Shown here one piece after another: positions 1-24,019 of a stretch of DNA of 64,000 nucleotides. The stretch covers positions 9,908,641-9,972,640 of the forward strand of contig NC_092705.1 in assembly GCF_964275005.1 (NCBI RefSeq), read 5' to 3'. The notes beneath the pieces are model-generated. The model did no database searches. It saw only the letters and a list, made by a program, of their open reading frames with translations, and was not told the origin of the DNA. Origin of the DNA: Diadema setosum (Eukaryota; Echinodermata; Echinoidea; Diadematoida; Diadematidae). Position 1 is the stretch's first letter. Each line of letters starts with the position of its first letter. A program made the position numbers and the translations under genes.

Positions 1-572
1 ATGTCAATGGATTCACTTGTATGGGGTGCTTTATCACGCAACTTTTGCCTTGCTATTTTGTACCCTTTCCGACCTTAGTGAAAGGTCTCTGAAAAGAGGT
101 TTACTGGGGTGTGCATATTATTCACGGCGCCCTTTTGAGTGGGGGACTTTCTGCACCATTGATGACGTATGACGTCAACTTTCTTGAAAGCGAATTGTTA
201 TGGGCGTAGTCTGGGTTTCAAGACTATTTTACAGCTATGTGGTATACATATTTTACGAAATGGCATGCACAGAACTCGCCAACAAGCGGCAGCGACAATG
301 CTTTCTTTCCTTTGTAAATATTCAACATCTGATACAACATATAAACTGACTCCACAAAGGATGTCATGAAAATCATACACGTCTGGAAACAGGACTAGGG
401 TCTGTTCAAGGAGGTTAATATCTTCTTGGGTTGGGCATTCACTGCGAGAATTACCTGCTGGTGTTAAGGCTGATTATGTAACAGTGAAAAGAGGGGAGTA
501 CAATGTCATCGTACGTGGAGCTGAACGAAACACAAACCCGGCCTATACGATGAGAGGAAGGAGGACTAAATA
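1..572. other. Anonymous DNA, no gene seen
   Basis: Only short open frames without recognisable domains occur here. I see no inverted repeat, RNA gene or simple repeat of note. Confidence 0.5.
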
Positions 573-780
573 TTTGTCACACCTTTCCGGGCAAGCCTTG
601 CGTGCGACTTGCGAAGAACAATTTTAGATACCCGGATGTCCCCGCAGATGACCCGCACATGACAGTACCTAGCACGTATCTCACCCGACCGTAGTTCGAT
701 GGGCATGTTGGGAGGTCCGGGTAGCAAAAATTTTTCCCCGCAAGTCAACCCGCACGGCTTCCCAAGACACGGTGTGACAA
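573..780. mobile_element. Short inverted-repeat element (MITE-like)
   Basis: The left end TTGTCACACC is mirrored by GGTGTGACAA at the right end. Similarity between the arms continues inward for about 65 bp with mismatches (the left arm holds GGGCAAGCC, the right arm the complement of GGGAAGCC). There is no coding capacity. This is the layout of a non-autonomous DNA transposon. No clean target duplication could be assigned, so the superfamily is open. Confidence 0.65.
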
Positions 781-1271
781 TTTAAGGCTTTGAGCATGCT
801 CAAAACTCGTTCCGGATGAGTTGCGGGGGTTTGCTCGCAGAGGTACACGCAGAACACTTGTAGGGGGCCCTTATAGGGGCAGCACCTCGAAGGCAACTCC
901 CACGCAGGTACTTCGCAGCTGTAACGCAGGTACTTCGCAGTCCCCATTTTTGTCACTCGTAACTGAAAACGGATCGGTTTCGAAACTCTCACGCGGGTCG
1001 CAAGTAGATAGTAAGTAGCACGCGTCTATACAGCAGGTAATACATAAGACGCAAGAACGGAACTCGCCAATTTAACATCCTTGTCCGCCCGCTGAAAATT
1101 CTCCTGCCTACTGGAAAATGACGGACATTACTGAAATGACTAGAAATCTGGTGATTAGGATGACTACAATACCAAAGCAAACAACACGTGGAACTATCTA
1201 ACAATGATCACAATGAGAAACTGACAACGACGATCGGAAGAATATCAGGGGAAAAAATCGTCTGGTCATCA
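781..1271. other. Anonymous DNA with one short tandem duplication
   Basis: The 17-mer ACGCAGGTACTTCGCAG occurs twice, at 902-918 and 924-940. No gene is recognised. Confidence 0.5.
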
Positions 1272-1660
1272 CTCGCGAATAGTATAGTTTTGGTTTAGAT
1301 GGGGCTTCGGGTTTCCAACTTTTTTTGTGTGTGAAATAATGAGAAGCCTCTGTAGGAAATATGAAAAAGTATAAGCTAAGAGGAATTCAGAGTCTTTTTG
1401 ATGAAAATCGGTTTTGAACTTGCCGAGATATATATAAAAAAGAGGTCCTGATAAAAGGTGGGATCCACATTTATTATGACCATTTTTTTATACTTTACTT
1501 TCAAATATTTCAACCATTTGAAAACCGATTTTCAACAAATAAACTTTAAAATTCCGCTTAAAATTGTATGCTCTTTCATATTTCATACGTGGTTTCTAAT
1601 AATCTCGCAAAAAGTTAAATCTGAATCCTCCATCTCAGCCAAAACTAAACCATCCCTCGA
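1272..1660. mobile_element. Fold-back element, family with copies near 25.8 and 42.7 kb (copy 1)
   Basis: The left end TATAGTTTTGGTTTAGATG mirrors a right end whose complement reads GGGATGGTTTAGTTTTGGCT. Inner arms pair around the shared core TTTTGATGAAAATCGGTTTT and its complement. The same plan, size (about 390 bp) and inner core recur at 25783-26165 and 42689-43080. This copy has lost the flanking TTAA seen on copy 3. Non-coding. Confidence 0.7.
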
Positions 1661-2849
1661 AGATGCAAAGTACACATCTTCGTCGAGGTTCAGCCTGTTA
1701 GTCGCTCGCTTAAAAGACATTCTCAAGTATTACAATGGCTGAATTAAAAATGTTGAATCTATACAATGTTACAAGGTGCTGAGCAAAATATTTCCAAAAA
1801 ACTGCAAGCATGGGGGTTACCTAATCATTTCCGATATTAGTGTCAAACAAAAATAATGGAACTCGAGGCTCTTTCTCTAAGCGCGAAATTCACAAAGATA
1901 TACGGTCTGAATCGAATCCACGGTTTAATAGTAAGTCAATGGACTTTCACCGAACATTTGTTGTAGATAAATTGTTTTCCAATCACATGTAGCTTCTTTT
2001 GTTGAGTTTGAATGGTTCATGGTATACTGTAGACTACCTACGTTACCTATGTACCTACGACCTCATCTTAATTTTATTTACATTTGGCCACCTCTGCATT
2101 TTGTCTGTTCACCCCCTTTAGCTTGCTTTAATCCCCTTCCCTTTAACCTGCATGGTTCCCTGCCTTTGACTTCTAACCCACCCGTTTTGTTTTCTACATT
2201 CTGTGTCCCTAGCCCTCCTCTGACTGTGCTTGTTGTGTGTAGTCATTATAGTGATTGCTTTCCACATACTCGGTAACATGTTTGTCATTTTGCCTGTGAC
2301 GAAGATTCTGTTAGGATAGAAAGCTCAGGCCCCTTTTGACTCCATTTACTTTATTCGTATTGGCACGTTGCTCTGGAAAGCTCTGGAAAATCTAAAAACA
2401 TACAAATTTTACATCCAGCTCCAGTTCTGCACAGGTATACATGTATTACAAAGTATGTGTATAGCATCCTACGTTATGAGTTATATATATTATGCCTATT
2501 ATGTGGACCTATTAGTGTGGCGTCCAAAATGACGGGGTTAAAAAGGTTGGTCAAAGTATTTACTTCATTCAGTTTACAAAATACTTTCTATTTATGTAAT
2601 TTTGTAAGCACTCGTGTGAGCTCATGGCAAGAGTGTATTAATTATATTGAATGTATTGTATTGTGTTTTCAATTCATATTTTCTCTGTGCTTCTGTCTGT
2701 GTTTTGCTATATGCTACGGTTGTTATACAGTAAAATAAGGGTCTTGATAAAAAGCATTTTTAGCCCATTACAGGTGACTTAATAGTGATCAAACAAAATA
2801 AATCTCAATTTTAACACAATGCTTATTTGTTTTTCTACATATGTACCAT
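1661..2849. other. Anonymous AT-rich DNA
   Basis: The longest open frame is 85 codons, rich in Pro and Leu and without recognisable motifs. Nothing supports a gene, RNA or defined repeat. Confidence 0.5.
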
Positions 2850-3047
2850 TACAGTGGACTCCTGTTGTACCATTTGAAGTCCTCCGGCCAACAAGCAATT
2901 TCCTTTGATTATATCAAAATTTCGTTATAACCGAACAAATAAACGATTAAAATATATAGAGTGGGTAATGTTGCCACCTGAATTTTTACTTCTTTGTAAC
3001 CAGAATTTCGTTATATTCCGTGTCCGATATAACAGGAGTGCACTGTA
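2850..3047. mobile_element. pogo/Tigger-like MITE
   Basis: Left end CAGTGGACTCCTGTTGTA and the complement of the right end CAGTGCACTCCTGTTATA form inverted repeats, bounded on both sides by TA (2850-2851 and 3046-3047). A TA duplication with CAGT-type termini is typical of pogo/Tigger members of the Tc1/mariner group. About 194 bp, non-coding. Two other elements with TIRs of this type lie at 32290 and 53908. Confidence 0.75.
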
Positions 3048-4749
3048 CTACTTTGACTGGATCACTGCTACTAGAGAGTACTTCCACCATTAGTATTGCT
3101 TACTACCACGCATGTTACAATTCCTCTTACTACTACTACTACCACTCCTACTACATTAAATTTTCAAGAGATGAGGGCAGCAAACATTAACAACCACCAG
3201 AATTTACATTTCATATTTACACACTTACACACAAACACTTCTCAGTCCACACACAAATTCTGTACCATCTTGGCAAACTGATTGTAAATTGATTATAGCA
3301 ATAAAAAAATACAGTATGTAACCTCACTCAAAGTCAACATCCATCCTACACTTCTCTTCATTTCATGAAATATGGCAATAACAAAATTTGTTTCGCTATT
3401 ATATGGCATTTTTAATGCACACTAATATACTTCAAGATCATATAGATATCATAAGCAATCTAGTGTGAGACTTATTTACAATTTAATTTCTAAGAAACAG
3501 CACTGTTAAAATGTATCCAATGTATATCTGAACAGATCTCGCAAATTCTTTTTACTCAACTGGATTTAATCTGATGACCTTTGATGTTTGATCTCTGGCA
3601 AAAAAAAAAGCAATCATGGCCAAATATCTGTGACAGCACTTGCACAGGATACAATTTGCATGCTTCTACATATGACTTGTGACAATGCAGACATATAGCT
3701 GGTGCAATAGGTGTTACAAAACTACTCTACTAGAGCACATTCATAATATTAGTGGATTTGTACACTTGTATTCTGTTATGATAATGATACACTGTTGTAC
3801 TCATTACCGCTTGTTGGTAATTTACATTTATTGGTGACTATCATAAGCACATAAAAAGCATTAAGGGGGTATGAAGATGCAACATTCTCATTTATTGGCA
3901 AACGTCATATGATGTATACTGATCCTTCGTTCATTCAGTGACATACTGGCAGATTAATGAAAATAATATTTCATCCTTCTTACCTCTGTCAAGGCACATT
4001 TATTCAGCTATGTTTCTGCATGATTTAAGTTCCATGAGAAGTGAACATATATTTGGTAGATATTCATGCATTTCATAGTCTAAATTCAATATGAAAAATG
4101 TGAACATGCAATATTTGCATCAATGTTCACATAGCTCATGATATTTTGAGAAATTGTTGATGTAATTATGAGTGCTGTTCAAATGAAGCACCTGTTACAC
4201 ACTAATTATGCAAATATATGCTAAATAGCATATTAGTTATTTATGTCTTTTGTAAGTTCATTGTCTTTTTAAGGCTCTTACAGAACATGAGGAAAGTCAA
4301 ATGACAACTCAAAAAAAAAGCATAAGGAGAACAATAATGTGAAGATCAGACACATGATGGGAGAATGTCGTCATAAGCATATTTTGATTGAATCATTTCT
4401 TCATTCAAGAAAATGTTTATACGCGTATGGATAACCAGGTCAATTATCCCTTTAGATAATTGCAGGTATACATCGAAAGTTACAAATCACAATGTTAAGA
4501 ACATATAATACGTATAAATGACATCCAGGAGATTAATGCGCTGATATTAACAATAACATTTAACACTGACAATCATTCTAACAATTATATCAATTCTATA
4601 GACCAGAAAATTATATCAGATATATATGGAAACTTTACACTCCGGACGGACCAATAATCGGTCGACGTTCAGCATTTTTTGCACTGATTTTGTTTTATAC
4701 AAAATCAAAAAGGAATAGAGAGGCATATGCAATAAATAAAGAACTCTAA
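3048..4749. other. Anonymous AT-rich DNA
   Basis: Short open frames only, including a Thr-rich one from (CTA)n-like sequence near 3120-3160. No gene or clear repeat recognised. Confidence 0.5.
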
Positions 4750-5331
4750 GACCCCGTTTACAGTGCAAAGCTCGGCAGCGGCTGAGCCGCGGTCGAGCCC
4801 ACCTTCATTTCGGTGTAAACACGCAAAAGGCCAAATGCGAGGCCAAAATTGGCCTCACATTGTGTTGGCCTCGCTCTGGAGGTGGTCTCGGCCGTGGCCG
4901 AGCCCGGCCTTTTCTCAGTGTAAACGCAAACTGGGACAAATTCGCGGCCAATTTTAGTCTGGCTTCCAAACCCTCTGCCCGTACTATTTCGCTATTCAGG
5001 ATATTAACCCCCTCAATGTCGAAAACTAGTATAGTTTAAGGTGGTTTTGTCCTGCCAAAGATTTTTTCCTTTGGCAAAGGCCTTTGCCTGAACGGCGACT
5101 TAGTCGCCACGGAATTCATTGGCAAAGGGTCTGAAAACTAGACAATACCAAATTGCGTTTGTTAACAAGCAGAGCGCCACTACGACAAAATATTGAAAGG
5201 TTTGAATCAAAAGCGCGGCAGAGCCCGGCAGTGTAAACGAACAAAATTGCGGGGCCCGGCCTCGCAATTGAGGCTGGGCTCGGCCGCAGCTCGGCCGCGG
5301 CTCGGCCCAGCCCCACACTGTAAACGGGGTC
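4750..5331. mobile_element. GC-rich inverted-repeat element
   Basis: A perfect 16-bp terminal inverted repeat, GACCCCGTTTACAGTG at 4750-4765 and its complement at 5316-5331, bounds 582 bp. Just inside, both arms hold GC-rich GGCCGCGG/CGGCCGAG runs that can pair. The interior contains blocks such as GGCCTCGC on both sides. It is non-coding and far richer in GC than its surroundings. No matching target duplication was found, so the superfamily is unassigned. Confidence 0.8.
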
Positions 5332-6070
5332 CAAGCCCTTATAATGAGAACTTTTGTAATTTCACTTTCATTTTGTCAGAGTCTCAGAGGCAAGCAGAGT
5401 GGAAACACTCATCTCTTGCCCAAGCAAGGACATTTGCTTTGACGGAACTAGGCTCAAGTATCGCAAACAAGAATGGGGAACCCATGTCAGCTGAACAGCA
5501 CTAGGAGCATTTGATTGGACAAAATCGGGCGAAAGCATTGGAATCAAGAAAGATCATGCATCTGTAGGAAAAAAACAATTTACAGATACACCTAAACCAA
5601 CCAAATACAGAACACTGGATGATTTGATATTAGGAAAGAATCTGAACTGAAGACTGGAAAGACTCATGTTAATGTACAGTTTGATAATATGAGGTTAATT
5701 TGATAAGCTTACATTAAATATTTGTGAAGAATTAAGAGCTGATGTGTATAAGTTGGATTTATTTCATGGGGTCAAATCATTCAGTTGAGAATTACTGCTA
5801 TCTGTGATGGATTTCAAAATGCAGAGATACACTTACAATTACATTAATGCATGATTTATTAATCACAGTAGTATAGATTAAGGTGGTACTGTCCACACAT
5901 TCACCAAGTGACCCAGACTGATAGAGATACAATTTTTATGTATCAACATACATCATTTGTGTCACAAAACCTTAATCTAATGAAAGGTTGAAACTGGGTA
6001 GTAAGAGTATATAGACACCTATTTATTCATAGTATTGTGTTTGGGTGCGAGCTCTATGGAGGAATTAGAA
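5332..6070. other. Anonymous DNA
   Basis: No coding or repeat structure recognised between the GC-rich element and the fold-back element that starts at 6071. Confidence 0.45.
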
Positions 6071-6326: not shown

Positions 6327-7913
6327 CTGGGACGTGTGAAAGTCGACAGTGGGGAAGCTGGTTTGTATCTTTAAACACTAAAGACAAAACTGATGGTGTT
6401 GAGCAGGGAGATGAGGCCCATGGGTGATGACAGCCATACACCGGTGATGCTGAGGGTTGAAGGTGAGGTCGTGGAGGAGGTGGATGCTTTCAATGACTGT
6501 ACTTAGAAGTGATGACCAGCAATGAGAGCTATGACAATGAGATATAGCGTCACTTGGCTACTGCAAAGGCGGCATTTGTCTGCCTGGTTCCTGTTTGGAA
6601 GGGTAGGAATATCCACCAGCGGACAAAAGATACATCTTCTCCGGTCACTATAGTGTGTCTGATAGCCACCTACGGGGCCAAGTCACGGGGGCTAAAAAGG
6701 ATGGACCTCTTTTCAATAACGAAACATATTTCAATTTCTGGATTTTAAGATCTTCAAAATAATGAGCCCTATCTTATTTTTGGGCTGTCGAACTGTTTCT
6801 CATTTTTGGATTAACAAACTTATGTAATAATGAATCATATTACATTTTCGGACCAACAAAATGCCAGGTATAGCACGAAATTTGTTTGTGTTGGAAAAAT
6901 TAACCTCATCTCTACAAACTTGTATTTCAATAAAACAAACCCTCGGAATAACAAACATTACCTGTGAATGGGCATGCTGTATTTATTATTTTGTATTATT
7001 TGTGAATTAAAAACCTTGAAATTAAAAATCATAATCAGAGATCTTTAGCTATATAAGAACAGTACACAATAACATAATATGGCCCTCCCACGAAAGAATA
7101 GAAAACATCAAACAGGAAAGAGCAGTATAGGATGTATACAGAACTGTGTAACTGCATTAAATAACTACTATTAATGGTCGACAAAGGAAGCTCAGGTAAA
7201 TTTGTTTTGCATGCAGGGATCTTGACTTCCGGCCACCTAATCACAGGATAGGTGAAGTGGTTAGTCTGCTAGAAGGCATTCCTACGCTTACACTTACTGC
7301 GACAGCTACTTGAGAGATATATCAAGACGTATGCTTTGTACTTGCATTGACTGACAGCAGCACACACGTGGTGGCAAGAATTCCTGTCCGGTTTGTAATT
7401 TTGATTTTAAACAAAAACAAGAGCGCTAGGGGTAAACTGTGATTGCAATATAGGCTGAAGGGTATATCATCAAACAGAGCAACTGTGAAATCCTACTGGA
7501 TATATATTTACATTGTTCCACTGGGGCCCCAATACGGCCCAACTGAAGGTGCTTTAAGATGCACACAATATAGCCTAACATGTATCTGTTCTACTTTTTG
7601 ATAGGGAGAAGGTGCTTGATGAACTTTACAGTTTCCAACTTTGAACCTTCCCGCCCCCACCTTAAATTTCTTCAGTCATTATGCCGTTCATTATTACAGA
7701 TCTCGTTCTTAGTGGAGTCTGAAAAGGCACATCGGCCAAACAAGATCGAATTGAAGGAAACAGCTCTTTGGCCAATGATGAAGCATGATTACTCAATTGT
7801 CAATGTCCAGCATCTGATAGTGCTTCTCAAAGAGAAGCACATAATCAGGTGGCGATGATACTGACGGGATTAAAGAAAGATTTTCATGAACAGTTAACGT
7901 GTAGTAGGTCCAT
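6327..7913. other. Anonymous DNA
   Basis: Several frames of 60-90 codons exist but none shows a recognisable domain. The stretch 7600-7860 lies just upstream of a helicase relic and may be part of the same ancient insertion, but I cannot align it with anything. Confidence 0.4.
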
Positions 7914-11617: not shown

Positions 11618-13383
11618 CTGCCATCCTAGGCTTGCCAGGCTGCCACGGCATGGCAATTGTGGCGATACACGAATTGCAGTACCATACACCGTCACGCGTC
11701 ATCAGGAACGTAGACGACCTGAAGGCAGCATATCCTGCACAATTCAACAGGATCGGGAACTTCAGAGGAACAGCATCATTGCACCTGGAGCATGATGCAC
11801 AGCCATCAATTGATCCACCGAGGAAGTGTAGTGTACACTTACGGGATAAGATCAAAGCAGAACGGATGGTGCGTACTGTAAAGTCCACTTTACAGGAGTG
11901 TGCGAAGACTGGTCAGGACACACAAATAGCGATATTGCACCTCCGAGCAACACCTATCGACTCCGGTATGAAGTCACCAGCTGAACTCATGTTTGGCAGA
12001 CCGATCAGAACCAGCCTTCCGAGCCATCACCTCACGGGAGATTCATCAACTACAGAATGCCTTCTTGGAAAGCAGTCAAAGATGAAGGAAACGCATGACA
12101 AGCATGCAGGAGAGGAACTCCCACCTCTACATGTAGGACAGCAAGTTCGCGTTCTACACCCTCAGGAGCACACCTGGATACCCGCCAAGGTCACACAGGT
12201 GTGTGACGAACCTATGTCGTACACCGTGTCAACATCCAACGGTTCGATTCTACGATGCAATCGCTCTCACCTGAGAGATGTACCAGCCAGCAGTACGCCT
12301 ACACCCAGAAAGCGTGTACATTTTGCTGACGACAGCAAGTCTGTCGTGGAGACCCCTCCGGGTCATCGAGATCAGCCTCACACAGACACACAGAACACAA
12401 GCAAAAATCGCAGTCAGAACACAACCTCAAGTGCCACTCCTATGGTCAGTAGGTACGGTCGTAAGATCCATACGCCAACCAGATACCAACACACATAAAT
12501 ACTCATGAGAAACAGATGCAGATAAGAGTCAAGTAAAGTCCTTAAAGTTGTTGTTAATCATTTTAATTGTGCATGATATGGCAAATGTTTGACCAGTGCA
12601 CAAGATACACACCATTCAAATTCATGTGTGAAAAGGGAGAAGGTATATGTAGAAATCATATATCACGAACAATGTAAGAGTTAGAAGTTGTTGGTAAGAC
12701 TCATACCAAAAACAGTGTTAAAATTGGACATGAGTTCAAGGCCAAAAGTGTTGAATGAAAGGCCAAAGTGTTGTGTTGCTTAAATGCTGTTTGTAGATGC
12801 TAGTCACAGTTGTAACACTAGCCAGAAGTTAAAGGTTCACAATGTTTTTCAAACGTTTTGTTCATATGACAATAGCAGGACATGCTTATGGTTCCTAATG
12901 TTATCCAGTGATTGGTGTTGGTATTTAAACGAACACAGACAGAATATTAGGAAAAAGCAAGTCCAGATATATATATGCAGTCATACTCTTATTTTGAGAC
13001 AATTCCACCACATATGTTAATGCTTGAGTTAACCTTGGAACTACACAGATGTAATGACCAAAGTAAAAATGTTAATGACACAGTTGTCTCGTCCTGGATA
13101 TCAAGGTCAAATGTGTTTGAAAGGTAAGTTTAAGAAACTTACTACAGAGTCTGTAACCCCCACAGGAATGCATTCACAATAGTGTTTGTGTGACTATGTT
13201 TTCAGAGAAAGGGGGATGTTATGATACACGATTGTTATCGATATCACCAACCGATATCAGTGATCGATATTCACTGCACATTAAACATGGCTGAACCTTA
13301 AGAGCTACTGTGTCCAATCGTGTCATGATTGTCGGCCTTGACATGGCGTCTCTGAACATTCACAAGCATCACATCACATAACA

Positions 13384-13864
13384 GTGACAAAACAGACTGG
13401 TACACCCGGGCTTGAACTGGATAATTACAGAAAACAATGTCCTGAAGTCAAGAATGGGGAGAGATGCACATTCTACCATCATCCGCTCCTACACACAGAA
13501 GATGAGGCTACAGGTAATCAAGGCAATACCAATGACAACAGAGTTAGAGTAGCATCAGTGAGCTCAACTAGTGCTTTACTTCCTATCGTGACAATAGAAC
13601 TGCATGGAAACCAGGGAACGAAACAGAAAGGAAATCTGCTCTTAGATTCAGGGTCTAAGATTCAGCTTGATTTGGCAAGACCTGGCTTCAGAAATGCAGC
13701 TTAGTGGGGTGCCAACGACAATCACGATAACCAAGATTGGTGGAGAAGAGGAAAGTCTTCAAACGCAGAAGTACAGAGTGCCCATCCGAGAGATGAACAG
13801 TAACACTAAACCTTTCTTGATAACTGAATCGCATCATCATTGGCATGAACAATGCAGCCATTAG
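13384..13864 (+). mobile_element. BEL/Pao-type fragment (zinc knuckle/protease region)
   Basis: A Cys/His stretch with HHPLLHTED is followed by an aspartic-protease-like GNLLLDSGSKIQL and IGGEEESLQTQKYRVP, the order seen in BEL/Pao pol. The fragment is incomplete and broken, and sits between two Gypsy fossils. Confidence 0.6.
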
Positions 13865-16490
13865 ACAACGTCTGCTTCGCGAATCGGATATGTCGCTCGA
13901 CCGTGCAGTGTCTATTATCCGTGCCACGAATGCAGCCTCTTCACAAGCGGATGAGATAAAAACTCATGCATCATCATCTGTGAACTATGTTCCAAAGCAG
14001 TCTTCACGATCACATCGCTCTCAGCCCATGCCACAGCCAGTGGGTACGAGCAATTCAGCGAACAGTAATCGCAGTCCCACTAACACAACGTGTCAGAACT
14101 GTGGAGGTCTCTACCCGCATGATGCACGTAAACCATGTCCAGCTCGCGGTCAAACGTGCGTGTACTGTCACAAACTGAACCATTTTGCTAAGTACTGCCG
14201 AAAAAGACAACGTGACAGGAAACATGTCAACGTGCTAGCACAGCATGATCACACCACAGCGAGCTCGAGTGTGACCGATGAACTTGATACACCTTCTACC
14301 TCTACCCCTTCACATCACAACACTGTGAATGCTGAGGATCCCAACAGTGACAACTACCTTTTCACGGTCAACTCTCCCCAAAAGGACAAGCTGCCTACCG
14401 TGACAGTCTCCATCAATGGTGTCAACACCGATGTTATTCTTGACATTGGTGCTTCAGTCAACATCATGAGCGAAGCAACCCTGCGTAAAACGTCTTCCCG
14501 TCAACCAGCGTTGAAACCTGCCCACCAGCAAATCTTCGCGTTTGGATCTACTCGTCCATTATCTCTTCTAGCACGGGCAGATCGAACTTCCAGTTCGCTA
14601 CAAGTCTGGATAGTGTTGTGCAACATTCTTCATCACACAGCATGCTGGGCCTACCTTGCTGTGCCTGTCAACGTCCAGTGAATTACAGCTCATCAGCATC
14701 ACATACTACATCACTGGACAGGTCAACTCATCAATCTTCGATGAATTCGCTGATCGGTTTACCGCATTGGGTAAGCTGAAGGATGCAACTCGTCAGCTCC
14801 ATGTTGATGAGTCAGTTACGCCAATCACGCAACTCCACAGGCGCATACCGTTCCATGTTCGTAAACGTGTCGAAGCCGAGTTTGAACGTCTCCAGCAGCT
14901 AGACATCATCAAGCCTGTGCGTAATCAACCAACGCCATGGGTTTTGCCTATTCGTGTCGTACAGAAACCCAAACAGCCAGATCAGATCAGAATTTGCGTG
15001 GACATGCGAGCTGTCAACCAAGCAATCAGGCGTGAACGACACGTTACCCCAACCATCGATGACATCATCGCAAAGCTGAATGGAGCTCGGGTTTTCTCCA
15101 AACTCGATCTCAACAGTGGCTATCATCCATCGAACTCAATGAAGCTTCAGACTATCTAACTGTGTTCTCGACTCGTGCTGGTTTGTTTCAGTACAAACGT
15201 TTGAACTTCGGAGTGAACAGCGGTGCAGAGCAGTTCCAGAACTTCATTCAGTCAGCTCTCGCAGGCCTACCTGGTGTCATTAATATCAGCGATGATATCC
15301 TCATCTTCGGTCGTGATCAGACTGAGCATGATCATCGTCTTCACGATTGCCTGCAGCGGTTGAGAGACAAGAATCTCACACTTCACAAAGCGAAATGTGA
15401 AGTCAACAAGTCGTCCATTGAGTTCTTTGGACACATCTTCTCATCGAAAGTTCAATCGCTAGTTGATGCACCCCCTTCAACTTCTCGCGATGAAGTGCGC
15501 AGTTTCCTCGGGTTGGCTACGTACTGTGCACGCTTCATCCCACGATTAGCGACCCTATCTGAGCCACTCCGCATGCTTACCAGGCAAGATGCAGCATGGA
15601 AATGGGGTCATCGTCATCAATCTGCCTTCGACGACATCAAGCGTGCTATCGCTGACCACTGCAACGTGGCATACTTCAACCCACAGTTTCACAACAGCTG
15701 TGGTAACAGATGCAAGCCCCATTGGACTGTGGGCCATGCTAGTTCAATACGATCCAGCCAACGACAAGCCTGTCGTCGTTGCTCTCGCTAGTCGCTCCCT
15801 CACCCCAGTTGAGCAACGATATTCGCAGACCGAGAGAGAGGCATAGCCGTCACTTGGGGCATCATACACTTTCACCTGTATGTCTACGGAAGTCGCTTCA
15901 CTGTGGTTACAGATCATAAGCCTTTGGTCCCCCTGTTTAACCACACGTTCTCCAGCCCACCAGCGCGTATCGAGAGATGGCTGTTGAAGCTCCAGCAGTA
16001 CCACTTCGAGCTCATATATCAGCCTGGTCCCCTCAACCCAGTGGACTACTTATCGCATCATCCATCCACTAGTCAGACAGCCATGGACGCAGCAACTGAA
16101 GTTCATGTGAACTTCGTTCTTGAAAATGCAGTCCCGACATCGATCACGACAGCGGAGATCGTTGACGCTTCGAAACACGACCCCTTGCTTCAACTTGACA
16201 TACGCGCACTTCAGGACAACGCATGGGAAATGACCATCGACCAATCTACCCCAGACATCAGAGCTGAGTTGAAGTGCCTAGCGAATGTCAAAAATGAACT
16301 CAGCCTCGCAATGGATGATACAGTCATTCTTCGCGATCACCACATCGTCATACCGTCATGCCTCTGAGAACGTATCATCAGGGCATCATTCGCACGAAGC
16401 AGCTAATTCGTGAAAAGGTCTGGTTCCCTGGCATAGACAAGTATGTTGAACAGCGGGTTAAGCAATGTATCGCATGAAGATGACTGTAAA
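13845..16490 (+). mobile_element. Gypsy-type LTR retrotransposon fossil 2
   Basis: The parts lie in normal Gypsy order. Gag has two zinc knuckles (CQNCGGLYPHDARKPC and CVYCHKLNHFAKYC, 14090-14210). Next comes a protease-like stretch (14400-14480), then reverse transcriptase with RICVDMRAVN, FSKLDLNSGYH and the YxDD-region variant ISDDILIFG (14760-15560). RNase H follows (EQRYSQTEREA, VVTDHKPLVPLF, 15800-16040), and then the start of the integrase zinc-binding region (LIREKVWFPGIDKYV, near 16400-16470). No LTRs were identified. It is broken, with roughly four or five breaks. The protein motifs are still clear, which suggests moderate rather than extreme age. Confidence 0.88.
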
Positions 16491-16889: not shown

Positions 16890-16949
16890 CTTGCTGCTCA
16901 TTGGCATAACGGTGAACGACCCACCCGTATGCTCAGGTAGGCCTAGTCA

Positions 16950-19431
16950 GTGTGCTGCTTGGCAAGATGGCATACCAGGAGGCTTGCATCTCTGTTCAGG
17001 CTATGTGGACGAAAGAACTCTAACCGATGGTATCCGAGAGAAAAATTCAAGAAACACATTCAACAATCTCTTTCCCTAGATGTTTCAAGCGATGATGTTG
17101 CCGTGCATCCTTCACAGATTTGCCATTGCTGTGAGAGGAAGATCTACCGATGGAATTGCAAGCGAATCAAGAAGCAGGTTTGTGAGATTGGCATCACTCC
17201 AGCAAGCTTTGATCCCCATGGAAGAGACTGCAAGGTATGCTCCCCAGGAGAACAAGATGAACTGTTCAAGGAAATTGAAGGAGAAGCAAGAAGCCATAGC
17301 CTAGTTGTCAACCAGAAGAATTTCAAACTGTATGTTTTGTCACTCGACAGTGATGGAAATTCAGGGAAATGCTTGATTGTGACATTAACAGGGGAATGGA
17401 TGGTAAAAGTCAATGGCAGAGATGTTAATAAGCAGTCCGTTTTCACCGAGATACCCAATTTATTGACTCGTGACTTTGTTCAGAGCCTCGTTCGCACATT
17501 TAGTGAGCTTTCAGTCTGCCCTGGGAACACAGAGTACCTTATTCCAGCCCATCTTCTGGAAAATAGACCTGTATATGTTCATCATATAGCTTACTCAACC
17601 ACCATTCGTCATAATTCCTGTCCACTACTAACTAGTGAAACATCATGGTGTAGGAAATGTTGAATATACAGATCTGATCTTTCCCGTCTTCACAACCGCC
17701 TACGGGCTGACCACTCACCAGCCCCCAAAGCAAATTTCGGATATTTGAACAAAGAAAGACTTTCAAAAAAATTATCACAGAGTAGAGCTCACCAAAGAAA
17801 CCTCAAGAAGTGTGTGACTTCGTTAGAAGAAAAAAAACAATGCTGTTTGAGGAAAAGGCAACAAATCCTTGAACAGGAAGAAAATAAGTCCTTCTCTTCG
17901 ATAGTCTCTTCTGAGACTAAGACTGTACATGATCATTTTGAAGAGAATTCCCCGATGCGTGTCCTTTGGGACCATCAAGTAAAAAGACTGAAGGAACACC
18001 CTCAGGCCACTAGATGGAATCCGGCCATATTACGCCTATGTATTGCCTTATACGCGAAATCGTCATCAGTATATGTGACCCTGCACCTCAAAACAAACAA
18101 AAAGTCGCCAGACATGAATTTTTAGTTAAGGCCATATTCTGAAAAAGCACACTTTAAGCTTTAAAATGATGTATAACTCAAATCAAATGGACTCTCCTAA
18201 CCTATCTAAATATTGGAAAGAAAGCACAAACTCAGGAAAAGTGTGAACTGAGAAAAGAGGCTCTGAAGTACAGTGCCTATTCAAGCGCTTAATCTTTACC
18301 AAACCGTGCTGGCTGTGCGATGAATGGGACAAAAAAACAGGAAGTAAACCACCAGAGTAACAACAATGAAGGGATTATCAGATTAAACTGAAATTAAGCA
18401 TGCCTCATTAACACATTCTGTTCATAATTAATGCCAACTTTCAAAGCAGTAGCGCTATCCTTTCAAAAGTTATTAGAGTTGAAAGTGAAGAGTGTGGACA
18501 TGGTTTTTCAGAAATGAAAAAGGGATTCTAAAGACACACCTAATCACACTATTCTACCAAAAATGTTCGAGATAAACTGCTTAAAAAAAAAACACTTTCC
18601 TGCCCGTTTTATGATACCAAATTTTAGCATAATGTTAAAGAAGACCCGCTCTTTCAGAAAATATGAAAAAATCAAGTTCCGCTAGGTTGACCCATTTCAC
18701 TTATTTTCAGTCCTCACGCAAAATCAGTGTGTGCGACTTTATGTTCGTTTTGAGGTGCACGGTCACATATGATCTTCTACGAAACTCTGGATTTCTCACC
18801 CTTCCCCATCACAATACTCTAAAACAATACACCAATTTCACCGTTAACAACCCTGGCTTCAACAGAGACCTCATACGTAGAATAGTGACAGACATAAACC
18901 TGGAGAATCTCAAGCCACACCAGAAGAATGCAACCTTATGTTTTGATGAGGTCAAGATCAGCGAAGGATTGGTGTACAGCCATTCAACAGGACATATTAT
19001 TGGGTTCACATCCATCGGAACCCTTAATGATGAATTTGCGTCATATGCAAGAACTTGTACCAAGGAAGCAGCCCCTGCAATGGCCAGTCATGTTCTTGCA
19101 GTCATGGTTCGTGGCATTAACCACAGCTATCATTCCACTGTGGCATATTTTGCCACAAACAGTGCGTCTAGTGACCAACTTTATGCCATCATCATGGAGG
19201 CCATTGAAATAATGGAGCTATATGGCTTCAACATTCGAGCTTTGGTGTCGGACGGTGCTTCGTCGAACAGAAGTTTTTATAACATGTTGATGGAAACTGA
19301 TGGTGGCTTCAGCTTCATCCACCCTTCTACCCAGAAGCGCATTTACTTAATTAGTGATGCCCCCCCATCTCCTTAAGACGTGTCGCAATAACTTGGAAAA
19401 CTCGAGATTCCACAAGTCAAGAAATTTGATG
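16950..19431 (+). pseudogene. P-element/THAP9-like transposase gene, broken
   Basis: One frame runs 16950-18074 and resumes at 18771. N-terminal (16990-17260): a Cys/His region with VHPSQICHCCERKI and DPHGRDCKVC. Middle (17300-17640): a region ending near VCPGN and a CRKC-type pair. Next (17745-17900): a basic coiled-coil segment (RKRQQILEQEE). The catalytic region (18771-19431) carries DLLRNSGFLTLPHHNTL, the first acidic centre CFDEVKI, HVLAVMVRGI and SDGASSNRSF, then HLLKTCRNNLENS in another frame. P-type transposases cut and paste using an acidic triad. The third acidic residue would lie in the missing 3' part. Damage seen: TGA at 17660-17662, a 692-bp insertion after SSVY, and a frameshift at the C-run near 19363-19369. 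No N-terminal THAP finger was recognised. Strand and frame continuity make the call firm. Confidence 0.8.
18075..18766. mobile_element. 692-bp inverted-repeat element inserted in the P-type transposase
   Basis: Left end GTGACCCTGCACCTCAAAAC and the complement of the right end GTGACCGTGCACCTCAAAAC match with one difference, and similarity runs on to about 35 bp (through AAAGTCGC). ATAT occurs immediately outside both ends (18071-18074 and 18767-18770), consistent with a 4-bp target duplication. Removing the element and one ATAT joins SSVY to DLLRNSG in frame. Non-coding, superfamily unassigned. Confidence 0.85.
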
Positions 19432-19442
19432 GTAATTTTTGT

Positions 19443-19760: not shown

Positions 19761-22700
19761 AATAAATTCTGTTGGAGTGCTATCGTTCTTCGAACTCGAC
19801 CGAAACTCCTCACTTAGCAACTCGTGTTAAGTGAGGCAGCCACAATAAAATACAAAGGTGTTGAAACTGGATACTCGCTATGGATCCCGTGAAAGATGAA
19901 ACAAATGTTAGCGTTGCGAGCCACAAGACCAGTGGGAGCAGAGTCAGCCGATCTTTGAAAGCGAGTTCTGTGGATCTGCGCAGACGTCAGGCTGCTCTTC
20001 GGGCTTCCTTATCATTCGACGAGGAGGAAGCTAGACTGGAGTCCGAAGCCAAGTTAGCGGAAGCTAGGCTAAGAAATCTTCGTAAGAAACGAGAACTCGC
20101 AGAAATCGAAGCAGAGCAAGCTGTACTCGATGAATGCAGCAGTGAATCATCGGAGGATGAAAATCTTGCTTTAACGAACATTCGAAAGGAGGACAAGGAT
20201 GAATGTATCGATCGCTTCCTTAACTCTCAAGACAATCAAGGAACATCCCCTCCTACGTTAGAAGCCGTACAGCCTCCAGTAACATCTCAGCCGAAAGCCA
20301 ATTCACAACAAGCGGACTGGCATAATATCATCATTCTCGTCTCTGGAAAAGTGTATGTTACAACTTGCTGAGACATCTCTTCGGCAAGGTCGCATAAATC
20401 AGCAAATGCTAGCCTCCACCCAGTTGCCGAAGGTGGACATTCCAATTTTCTCTGGGGATCCACTTGTCTACCCTCTCTGGATAAACACCTTTGATTCTGT
20501 GGTGGACTGCAAACCCATTGATAATGGAAACAAGCTCAACCTACTGAGCCCTACTGAGCTCAGCATTCATTTCCAAGCTGAATTCTTGGGGGAAGATACA
20601 TAGTCGCGATGCCTCGGGCCTCCAAGATTTCGCAGATTGCCTCTCAAAAGTCATCGCCGCTAAGGAATCCTTGAAAGCCTTGGAATTTTAGACTTCCCTC
20701 AGGAAAATGCCTAACTTGTTGACAAACTCCCTACATACCTTGAAAATAAATGGAGGGATGAAATCGAACGATTCAAGGACAAGCATGGACGACAGGAATT
20801 CCCACCTTTCTCCACCTTTGCTGAGTTCGTGAGGAGAGCAGCAGACAGAGCCAACATCCCCGAGCTAAGTACAGCAGTTCGGGAGCAGCCACGGCCAGCC
20901 AACACAAAGCCAAGTGGAAAAAATGCTCATACCTTTGCAACTGAAGGAAAATGTTCCATGCCTTCGATCAAAGAAATGCAGGAAACCACAAAGAACAAAA
21001 CATGTCCGTTTTGCAGTGAAAATCATCTGATCGAAGATTGCTCGGGATTCCAAAACATCACCCTCGAAGACCGCCGAGCATTCTTCTTCGAGAAAAAATT
21101 ATGCTTCGGGTGTGGGCTACATTCAAACCACCAGAGCAAACAATGCAAGGCTAGGCGCACATGTGCAGTCTGCACGGGAATGCACCTCACCTGCTTTCAT
21201 TCTTGGCAGAAGCAGCCAAATACCAAACAGGAAGGAGCAGCATCGTCAAAGTGCACTAGAGTGTGTCATTTGCAAAACGTTGAAGGGAAGGACCACTCTA
21301 TGATTGTGCAAGTTTGGGTGAGGCAAGCTGGTGAGCCAACAAAGGAGTTCCTTGAATATGCAATTCTGGATGATCAATCCGATGTCAGTTTTGTATCGGA
21401 AAAACTTTTCGAAAAACTTGATCTTCGGGGCCATAAAACCAATCTCATGCTCACAATGCTGCACAACACCTCGGACATAGAAACTCTCAAGGTCCACAAC
21501 CTGGAACTTCTCGACCACAAAAAAGAAAACATTGTAAAGTTCCAACTGCCTTCACCAGGAGCGACATTCCTGCCACCAGGTCGCAAATCCCCAAGGCAGA
21601 TATCGCAAAAAGATGGCCACACCTCATGCGGGTCGCGGAGGAAATGATGCCATACGATCAGAACGTCGAAGTCTCTCTCCTCATTGGAACCAACTGTCCT
21701 AGTGCGATTCGACCAAGGGATATCGTCTCTGGTGGAGAGGAGGAACCATATGCCCAGAAATCTCTGCTCGGTTGGGGAGTTGTGGGTCGCATCTGCAAGG
21801 ATCCTATTGACACAAATTCAGCTAGTTGTCACAAAATCGTGGCTGAATTGTACCAGAACCTTGCATTCCCAACTAATGCAAAGGAGATTCTCACTGATGA
21901 CAAAATCCCCAAAGTTCTAGAGGCTGACTTCCAGCATGACGCCATCAGCAAACCCCTTTCCGTCGAAGACAAGAGGTTTCCTCACCTCCTCGAAGACGGA
22001 CTTGAGAAAAGACCAGGTGGACGCTTCAAAATGCAGAAGTGGGCTCATCCATCGACAGATCTTCGAGTCAGCGACATCGTCATCGTACCAGTGCCACAGG
22101 TACATCCCAGCAAGCGACGGTCTCCTACGCGAAGTCCAACCCGTGACAGCAGACTCATCGTGGGACCACCGAGGCAAACGCCAAAAGCAGCCTATCGGGA
22201 TGGAAAGGGCAGCTCACGACTTGGTCCTTCTCCTGTTGTCAGAAGAGACCTAGTAAATCGGAAGACCAAAGGATTCCCCATCAAGGAGCCAACATAGTAA
22301 ATTTTGATTTGATTGAATGAAATCATGTATTTTGTGTTGTTTCTCTGTTTCTCGTTTCACTCTATCCTAAATAACCCTTTCCTTGTATCTTTATTTCAAT
22401 CTTCTCTCACTCTATATTTCTTACCTTTGCTCAAATTAATAGTGAATGTCGTTAGTTATTATCCATCTATTTTGTAGATAGTATTTCAGGAGAGACTTTG
22501 TCCTATTTTCTATTTTGTCCTCATTCTCTTTTTTCTCTTCCCTCTTTACTTCCTTCTTTGCTTTCATCATTAATTGTTAATGCAGATACAATGTAATTAC
22601 CATTTCGATATCTGTAGTTGACATTTCCATTTTTGATGTTATTATATGTCTGATCACTTATACAATTTTTGAATCTTTATTGAATTTATGACTGGTTCGT

Positions 22701-23488
22701 TAAAATTTCTTCTGGGTAATTGCCTGTTAGCAGTTAAAGGAGCCATGTCACTGCAGCAGTATGCAGTGAAGAGATATAAGAGTTCTCATTCCATTTCATC
22801 GCTATTTTTTGTGTATATATTGCTCAGAAGTATTCTGAATGCAACTTGTGTACTGTGATATAACTCATGGTGACAATTTTGTACATAGCTGGTATACAGT
22901 TACATACACATGTATCTTACATACACCTGTATACCTCCAACTTGGCGTTTAATATGAAGCTTGCAGCACTGCCCCCACAGCCCCTATTGTTAATTTCTAT
23001 GTCTGTCCAGCCTCTATTATGTATAGTCATAAACTTAACCTCCCAAGCACACAACAAAGGCCCCTTTCAAATTGTGTAGTCCCCTATTGTTTGAACCCAA
23101 CTTCTGCTGGTAGCCTTGGCGTGGGAACTAAGTTAGCTTTTGCAACATCTTGGGCTTGGAAAGCCAGCAAGAAAGCCAAACTAGTCAGTATCATGTTCCA
23201 ATCATCGTTGAGAAAGCATCTCATATCTAGTACCTCGTATCTTGTATCTCGTATCTCGTATCTTCGAAGTTCGCTCCTTCGTTCCAAAACCAGTTTCAAC
23301 AGTTCAAAGCCTCCAATTGTATTTTATCTACTCTACTCTACTTCTACATGGGAGATTTGGATTCCAATAAATTTGTTTTCGCAAATTCATATCTCTCTGT
23401 TCGGAATAAATTCTGTTGGAGTGCTATCGTTCTTCGAACTCGACCGAAACTCCTCACTTAGCAACTCCCGTTAAGTGAGGCAGCCACA
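19761..23488 (+). mobile_element. BEL/Pao-type LTR retrotransposon fossil
   Basis: The 84-bp blocks at 19761-19844 and 23405-23488 match at all but about two bases; both end GGCAGCCACA and read as the 3' ends of two LTRs. Between them is a charged coiled-coil Gag N-terminus (EEEARLESEAKLAEARLRNL, 19880-20180), then PKVDIPIFSGDPLVYPLW (20430-20490). A knuckle region follows (CPFCSENHLIEDC, CFGCGLHSNHQSKQC, 21000-21190), then an aspartic-protease-like AILDDQSDVSFVSEKLF (near 21360). The last recognisable part, at 21630-22300, has a C-terminal WDHRGKR stretch. Only part of pol is recognisable. It is broken, with several breaks. The close LTR match suggests a fairly recent insertion or later homogenisation. 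22300-23404 is non-coding tail and LTR-proximal sequence. Confidence 0.8.
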
Positions 23489-24019
23489 GTTACTTTTATA
23501 GAAAATTTGGAGAAATGTTTGACTAGACATTTTCTGTTGTTGTTGTAATTGTTTGTATTTACCATATGCACCTTTAATAAGATATTGATAGATATATTTA
23601 TATGTTTTGGCAAAAAATAGTTCAGAGGACTCAGTATTTCTTGAAGACACATCATTGATGTATACGAGTGGGACATGCAGCAGCAGACTGGCCTGAGAAT
23701 GCTCCACCACCTGTTCACACACATCGCACAGTCAAAGGCGCACACCATGTTACTATGCTATCGGCGTCGGGTCAAAGGTGAAACGCCGAATACAATAACT
23801 GCGCATGCGCAAAACCAGCACCGGACACCAAGCCCAGTCAATCGTGAGCTAATTTAAGATCACTCCCTGCTGGGCTGATTGCTTATGTAGGATTAGGGGG
23901 GATTACTCTCGAGAGTTCAGTGTAACGGACTAACCCTTTGTACTTCCCATAGATGTTTCTCCCTCTTTCTTTGTACCTCCATGATTTGACCCACCAAGGT
24001 TCATTCATTCTCCTTCTTG
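23489..24019. other. Spacer between the BEL/Pao fossil and ANKRD39
   Basis: It contains the compound motif listed at 23762-23811 and probably the 3' UTR of ANKRD39 (minus strand). No coding sequence was recognised. Confidence 0.5.
23762..23811. promoter_or_regulatory. DR1-like half-sites beside a palindromic NRF1-type site
   Basis: GGGTCAAAGGTGA (23770-23782) fits a DR1 arrangement of AGGTCA-like half-sites. TGCGCATGCGCA at 23800-23811 is a perfect palindrome matching the NRF1 consensus. CGGCGT and ACGCCG flank the DR1-like part and can pair. This may be regulatory or simply a transposon end; nothing shows activity. Confidence 0.35.

Follow-up and report, generated by a model that had tools for sequence, protein, structure and literature searches.

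The window analysed here is a 64,000-nucleotide stretch of the genome of the echinoid Diadema setosum (contig NC_092705.1, positions 9,908,641 to 9,972,640 of the forward strand; all window positions below are counted from its first base). Between 16947 and 23713, the window contains the broken remains of what is quite probably a decayed transposase gene of the P superfamily, whose first exon appears to carry a zinc domain homologous to that of RAG1 in the place of the THAP domain. In P-element transposases, an N-terminal zinc-containing THAP domain binds the transposon ends and is followed by a coiled coil, a helix-turn-helix and an RNase H domain into which a GTP-binding domain is inserted (PMC7776569).

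On the forward strand of the window, the frame 16947-17663 is open and contains, at 16995-17240, all of the peptides quoted in an earlier, sequence-only reading of this locus (the first-pass annotation). The RAG1 N-terminal-like zinc domain, also called the "Chapa" or central non-core domain, spans 16959-17240 and contains the motifs FRLCG (16995-17009), ICHCC (17118-17132) and, as its third motif, DPHGRDCKVC (17211-17240). It is followed by a middle domain specific to the family (17241-17660, defined in alignment A2), which has a Cys pair close to the end and contains a conserved CPGN stretch; this domain, together with its CPGN stretch, is kept in most rows of alignment A2, and no Pfam family matched it in the window at E<=1. 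The frame ends at an in-frame stop codon (17661-17663), a lesion of the window copy. The next stretch (17664-18070, forward strand) is in the same frame modulo 3 and aligns to L009, and partly to L010, two other copies in the same genome. It is likely the coiled-coil and helix-turn-helix part of a P-type transposase, as we presume from its position; no Pfam helix-turn-helix family was matched in the window pieces scanned. An insert of about 0.7 kb (18071-18770, no strand assigned), similar to a miniature inverted-repeat transposable element and with 38-bp inverted arms (92%), comes next and is not present at the matching place in L010.

The P-type frame 18639-19373 carries, downstream of this insert, the N-terminal half of a P-element-type catalytic RNase H (18849-19289, forward strand; PF21787, E=2.6e-27, 96.3 bits), in which FDE and VSDG are retained (alignment A3). 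The end of exon 1 lies past a frame break near 19360, at 19355-19431 on the forward strand, as located by homology to L009 (tblastn, 19351-19440). From 19432 the window reads GTAATT, which is donor-like (GTAATC in L009), and we infer a splice site at 19432 from the sequence. A later insertion of about 3.7 kb with retroelement-like open frames (19761-23488, no strand assigned) follows, flanked by direct repeats of 84 bp (19761-19844 and 23405-23488, 97.6%). This insertion contains zinc-knuckle-like frames, and two of its long frames yielded no Pfam match at E<=0.01. On its far side, a remnant of exon 2 (23621-23713, forward strand), comprising the start of the GTP-binding insertion domain, was found by tblastn at 64.5% to exon 2 of L009 (E=6e-10). 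When the window was compared with L010, 11 bases of L010 were missing directly after the putative ATG, and Phe was found where L010 has the first zinc Cys (pair 1). Given these two changes together with the stop codon, the insert and the frame break near 19360, the window copy is dead, as judged from its sequence.

The first-pass annotation had claimed that the order of the N-terminal motifs follows the zinc region of RAG1, and profile searches bore this out. PF12560 (RAG1_imp_bd) was the sole Pfam family in the frame 16947-17663 (E=7.7e-6; 26.1 bits versus a curated cut-off of 23.3; residues 37-102). The same family was matched in L011 (also L007) at 34.4 bits and in L010 (also L002) at 23.8 bits, the latter just over the cut-off with no single stretch passing. 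When used as a single sequence against the PDB, the window matched RAG1 weakly (E=0.1), as its only match at E<=10. A profile (A1) was then made from seven N-termini, from seven places in the source genome with the window included; L014 (a near copy of L012), L016 and the loci fetched later were left out. The top match of profile A1 in the PDB was RAG1 (21wb_A, E=7.1e-9, 39 bits; full RAG1 chains, 1.5e-7), in an alignment that spans 3-98 of 102 positions with three Cys pairs aligned. Alignment of A1 by hhalign to the N-terminus of the source genome's own RAG1-like protein (L039) gave a score of 78.0 over 92 columns (1.8e-14), and to a vertebrate RAG1 fragment a score of 60.3. When 100 shuffles with fixed Cys and His positions were scored against each of the two, the best reached 32.3 and 28.0, respectively, below the real scores. 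In RAG1, the domain formed by residues 87-217 holds two zinc ions, binds double-stranded DNA and contributes to nuclear localisation; its Cys pairs 110/113, 175/178 and 210/213 were targeted by mutation because they might be zinc ligands (PMC3124419). By our own numbering of the A1-RAG1 alignment, these are the three pairs conserved in the P-type family. The third motif of the family stands at the position of W-x-P-H-x3-C-x2-C in RAG1.

A different assignment of this domain has to be weighed, namely that it is a ZAD-like (zf-AD) fold with two Cys pairs and that its likeness to RAG1 is generic to such Cys domains. Six of the seven members of A1 matched zf-AD at E<=1, and six of the seven likewise matched PF12560 at this threshold. 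Moreover, the domain of L009 taken alone scored 29.3 bits with zf-AD (cut-off 28) and 14.6 with PF12560 (below 23.3), and the fourth PDB match of A1 was 7po9 (LD30467p, E=0.017), a chain that we take to be a ZAD domain. With zf-AD, the whole frame of L009 stayed below the cut-off (24.5), as did L002 (19.1) and L007 (18.2). The scores of the L009 domain are among several results that weigh against a RAG1-type domain. PF12560 was not matched at E<=0.01 in the whole L009 frame, and the N-terminal frame of L012 matched no Pfam family at E<=0.01. Of the 14 places read in the genome (see below), L013, L015 and L043 have lost the third motif, L016 has it in altered form, and in L046 it was not seen. 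In addition, when an AlphaFold2 model of the L009 domain (7 rows; predicted local distance difference test score, 70.6) was compared with the PDB by Foldseek, nothing matched (best E, 4.2), a result that we read as uninformative. On the other side, A1 scored 39 bits to RAG1 versus 18.5 to 7po9, and the RAG1 score was out of reach for shuffles that kept Cys and His. The third motif, H-x3-C-x2-C, is intact in RAG1 and in 9 of the 14 places (the window, L009, L010, L011, L012, L014, L042 and two copies in L041), whereas the zf-AD matches stop before reaching it. We regard a merely generic, ZAD-like domain as improbable.

The occurrence of the RAG1-type zinc domain beside a P-type core was examined by protein search of the source genome (912.7 Mb, 102 contigs). 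The search gave 19 matches, which were grouped into 17 places on ten contigs; 14 of these were read, and C9:22608583, C9:22618541 and C18:33424074 were left out. In 13 of the 14 places (L009 counted), the L009 query matched past residue 350, that is, in the P-type part, on the same strand, and PF21787 was matched in 9. For the two copies in L041 and for L042 and L016, the match extends no farther than the sequence ahead of the RNase H or the very beginning of that domain. L015 is an exception: it has the zinc domain, the middle domain and the coil, but the 4.4 kb retrieved from its downstream side showed no P-type core. The cleanest copy is L009 (C22:30539000-30548999), where an uninterrupted frame of 613 codons (3996-5834) begins with the zinc domain and matches PF21787 over residues 419-545 (71 bits). 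Further exons for the GTP-binding insertion lie at 6674-6829 and 7563-7748 in L009, with PF21788 below its cut-off (exon 2, 20.0 versus 24.8); in L012, the PF21788 exon (35.3 bits) and the PF21789 exon (26.2 bits) both exceeded theirs. Thus, the pairing is real and recurs across a family in the source genome.

The family also yielded two structural observations. L012 (C15:25749000 on) and L014 (C10:1160000 on) share stretches of more than 12 kb at about 98%, and each has a frame break of its own. In L041, a frame is repeated about 4.4 kb apart (531-1547 and 4927-5797), each time immediately ahead of the zinc domain's second half; the repeated frame resembles what we take to be a Harbinger-type protein.

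The claim of the first-pass annotation that the zinc region shares one frame with a P/THAP9-type core must be modified for the window. The two parts are indeed in the same frame modulo 3, and the core is strongly matched by PF21787, but they do not form one open frame there. Since PF12560 passes its cut-off in the window and L009 holds both parts in a single frame, we encountered neither a lack of significant profile match to RAG1 nor a family in which the two parts never belong to one gene. The interrupted state of the window copy, with its nested insertions and with its two parts outside one open frame, could also be taken to mean that a fragment of a Chapaev-like or RAG1-like gene came by chance to lie beside a P-type element. 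Such chance juxtaposition is exceedingly improbable, given that the same order was found in 13 of the 14 places, that one open frame spans both parts in L009, and that six of the cores form one clade (see below). When N-terminal pieces were scanned against Pfam, no THAP match was found, and RAG1_imp_bd and zf-AD were matched there instead; neither a RING family nor the RAG1 core (PF12940) was matched in the pieces from the window, L002, L003, L007 and L008.

Relatives beyond the source genome were sought with the window open reading frame and profile A3 in IMG/VR, with A3 in GTDB contigs and with the window open reading frame in plasmids, and none was found; as these collections are viral, prokaryotic and plasmid, the searches carry no information on other animals. 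For use as a search profile, alignment A2 proved too diverse. Among the open-licence literature listed, as judged from titles and the starts of abstracts and with Repbase outside that scope, there was no description of a RAG1-type N-terminus on a P-type transposase. Within a known superfamily, the family represents a new arrangement of domains.

Selection on the two parts was estimated from the window and L010, which are 83% identical in DNA over 588 bases. As point estimates for this one pair, with no significance test, the ratios of nonsynonymous to synonymous substitution rates (dN/dS) in the zinc domain were 0.157 for the first two Cys pairs (60 codons) and 0.217 for the third motif and the residues that follow (52 codons); the ratios were 0.119 for part of the middle domain, 0.165 for the coil and 0.086 for the RNase H (188 codons). 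The changes between L012 and L014 were too few for such an estimate. Because all of the ratios were well below 1, selection seems to have maintained the zinc domain along with the core. A tree of RNase H domains was built with the window, L009, L010, L011, L013 and L014 and with five other P-type cores; L012, L015, L016, L041, L042, L043 and L046 were left out. The six cores with a RAG1-type N-terminus formed one clade against the five others (99/98), which is consistent with a single fusion event.

Whether this family is mobile is a separate matter, on which several results bear. An exact-seed scan of two loci revealed no terminal inverted repeats or 8-bp target duplications, and neither the edges of the L012/L014 duplication nor a search for inverted ends yielded anything convincing; a P-like CATGG left edge was a conjecture. 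Furthermore, a 660-base DNA query of the window subfamily was found in two places only, the window and L010. With no terminal repeats found and two places matched by the DNA query, mobility is presumptive. In L009, moreover, the position of the first catalytic Asp is occupied by Gly (alignment A3), and because of this replacement the L009 transposase is probably not active. These results could be explained if the copies were host genes domesticated from such a transposon, few and diverged and without terminal repeats, rather than a transposon family. This explanation would fit the two places of the window subfamily, the lack of detected terminal inverted repeats, the first exon of L009, unbroken and yet with its first catalytic Asp replaced, and the location of L012 and L014 within a shared stretch of more than 12 kb. 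The copies, however, are broken in differing ways, the 17 places are spread over ten contigs, and the Asp lost by L009 is still present in the window, L010, L013 and L014. We therefore consider domesticated host genes unlikely, although plausible enough to keep in view, and favor a decayed transposon family with a P-type transposase.

In the surroundings of the window copy, a retroelement remnant lies just upstream (13342-16364), with matches to RVT_1 and RT_RNaseH in broken frames. Farther away, an open frame at 51376-51894 matches Hemingway/CFAP97 (28.1 bits versus a cut-off of 25.6) and is perhaps an exon of a host gene.

The distribution of the zinc domain in the whole source genome was assessed with PF12560, which gave eight matches, all over the cut-off. 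Two of these are P-type (the window and L011). In five others, a RING-like stretch follows the domain: L032 (C2), L031 (C4), L033 (C13), L030 (C19) and L029 (C9:9542090). A RING family exceeded its Pfam cut-off only in L029, which also has a DUF1280 match; it was below the cut-off in L031 and L033, and the RING-like stretch was read by eye in L030 and L032. The open frame of L032 reads on into retroelement-like sequence. We presume that L029-L033 are Chapaev-like. The eighth match, L025, is short and falls outside both groups as assigned. A search of the genome for the RAG1 core (PF12940) yielded 17 matches, all away from the places of the P-type family. The best of these, L039 (C1:38615900-38619400), is an open frame of 933 codons (79-2877, minus strand) that comprises the zinc domain, a RING-like stretch scoring under the Pfam cut-off and the core (PF12940, 273 bits). 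The N-terminus of L039 scored 16.5 bits with PF12560, less than did the P-type window copy. By these profile matches, then, mobile-DNA enzymes of more than one kind carry the zinc domain.

The first-pass annotation had further held that the pairing bears on where RAG1 acquired its N-terminus. Two views were found in the literature: the ancestor shared by the Transib and Chapaev groups already had the domain fused to the core (PMC4411706), or the domain was added to RAG1 from an N-RAG-TP element (PMC8355894). Nothing in our data shows that RAG1 took its N-terminus from a P-type element, and trees and scores were in conflict. In a 13-row tree of the domain, the P-type rows grouped at 83/84, a value not starred. 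When weak rows were dropped to give three reduced trees, the RAG1-like row (L039) moved to the P-type side in two of them and was absent from the third. The trees have long branches, with warnings raised for the reduced ones, and the 13-row and reduced trees differ in where they place the RAG1-like row. Vertebrate RAG1 grouped with the RING rows in all three of the trees that hold it. In agreement with this placement, vertebrate RAG1 scored 81.4 with a profile of four RING rows versus at most 67.2 with 35 four-row subsets of the P-type sequences, and RAG1 in the PDB obtained 47.1 bits from the RING profile and 39 from the P-type profile. The best single pairwise match of vertebrate RAG1, by contrast, was the P-type L011 (126, versus 125 for the RING row R_L031). 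For the RAG1-like N-terminus of L039, 34 of the 35 P-type subsets outscored the RING profile, and its best single match was the RING row R_L031.

P-type elements as the source of the RAG1 N-terminus are thus a hypothesis. RAG1/Transib and P-type proteins carry the domain in the source genome and Chapaev proteins carry it according to the literature. We tentatively propose, as an idea rather likelier to fail than to hold, that the zinc domain at the N-terminus of RAG1 is a DNA-binding module that is mobile and has been passed among transposase superfamilies, and that P-type elements living alongside RAG1-like genes in the genomes of invertebrates belonged to the pool of donors for the N-terminus of RAG1. 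If this were true, the shared domain would be no basis for inferring a common ancestor of Transib and Chapaev that carried it. The presence of the P-type family in one genome beside a RAG1-like gene and RING-bearing loci shows that a catalytic core of another kind can also be fused to the module. The family also offers non-immune relatives in which the function of the domain can be tested.

A mechanism may be envisaged for an intact member of the family. The RAG1-type zinc domain would take over the job of THAP, binding two zinc ions and double-stranded DNA, and would tether the transposase to the ends of the element; as in RAG1, it might also aid import into the nucleus. Cutting and joining of the DNA would fall to the P-type parts, the RNase H and the GTP-binding domain.

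When the family is compared with the P superfamily and THAP9 (PF21787, PF21788, PF21789), the RNase H halves and the GTP-binding insertion domain are alike by Pfam, whereas the N-terminal zinc domain of the family is of RAG1 type, with no THAP match in the pieces scanned. A THAP exon was likewise not seen, by open frames and a rough motif, in the 3.7 and 3.3 kb upstream of two other P-type copies. The helix-turn-helix family PF12017 was matched in three other P-type copies scanned (L034, L035 and L038) but in no scanned piece of the family. With RAG1 and RAG1-like proteins, represented here by L039, the family shares an N-terminal zinc domain with three Cys pairs, although the window copy is without the first Cys; it differs in that RING and the RAG1 recombinase core were not matched in the scanned P-type pieces, whereas L039 has the core. 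Chapaev-group proteins, as described by Kapitonov and Koonin 2015 (PMC4411706), are similar in having an N-terminal Chapa domain, in some cases with RING, and different in their transposase. The N-RAG-TP of Aplysia is described in later papers as a transposon protein with a part resembling the RAG1 N-terminus; by those descriptions, it is like the present family in carrying such a part on a transposon protein.
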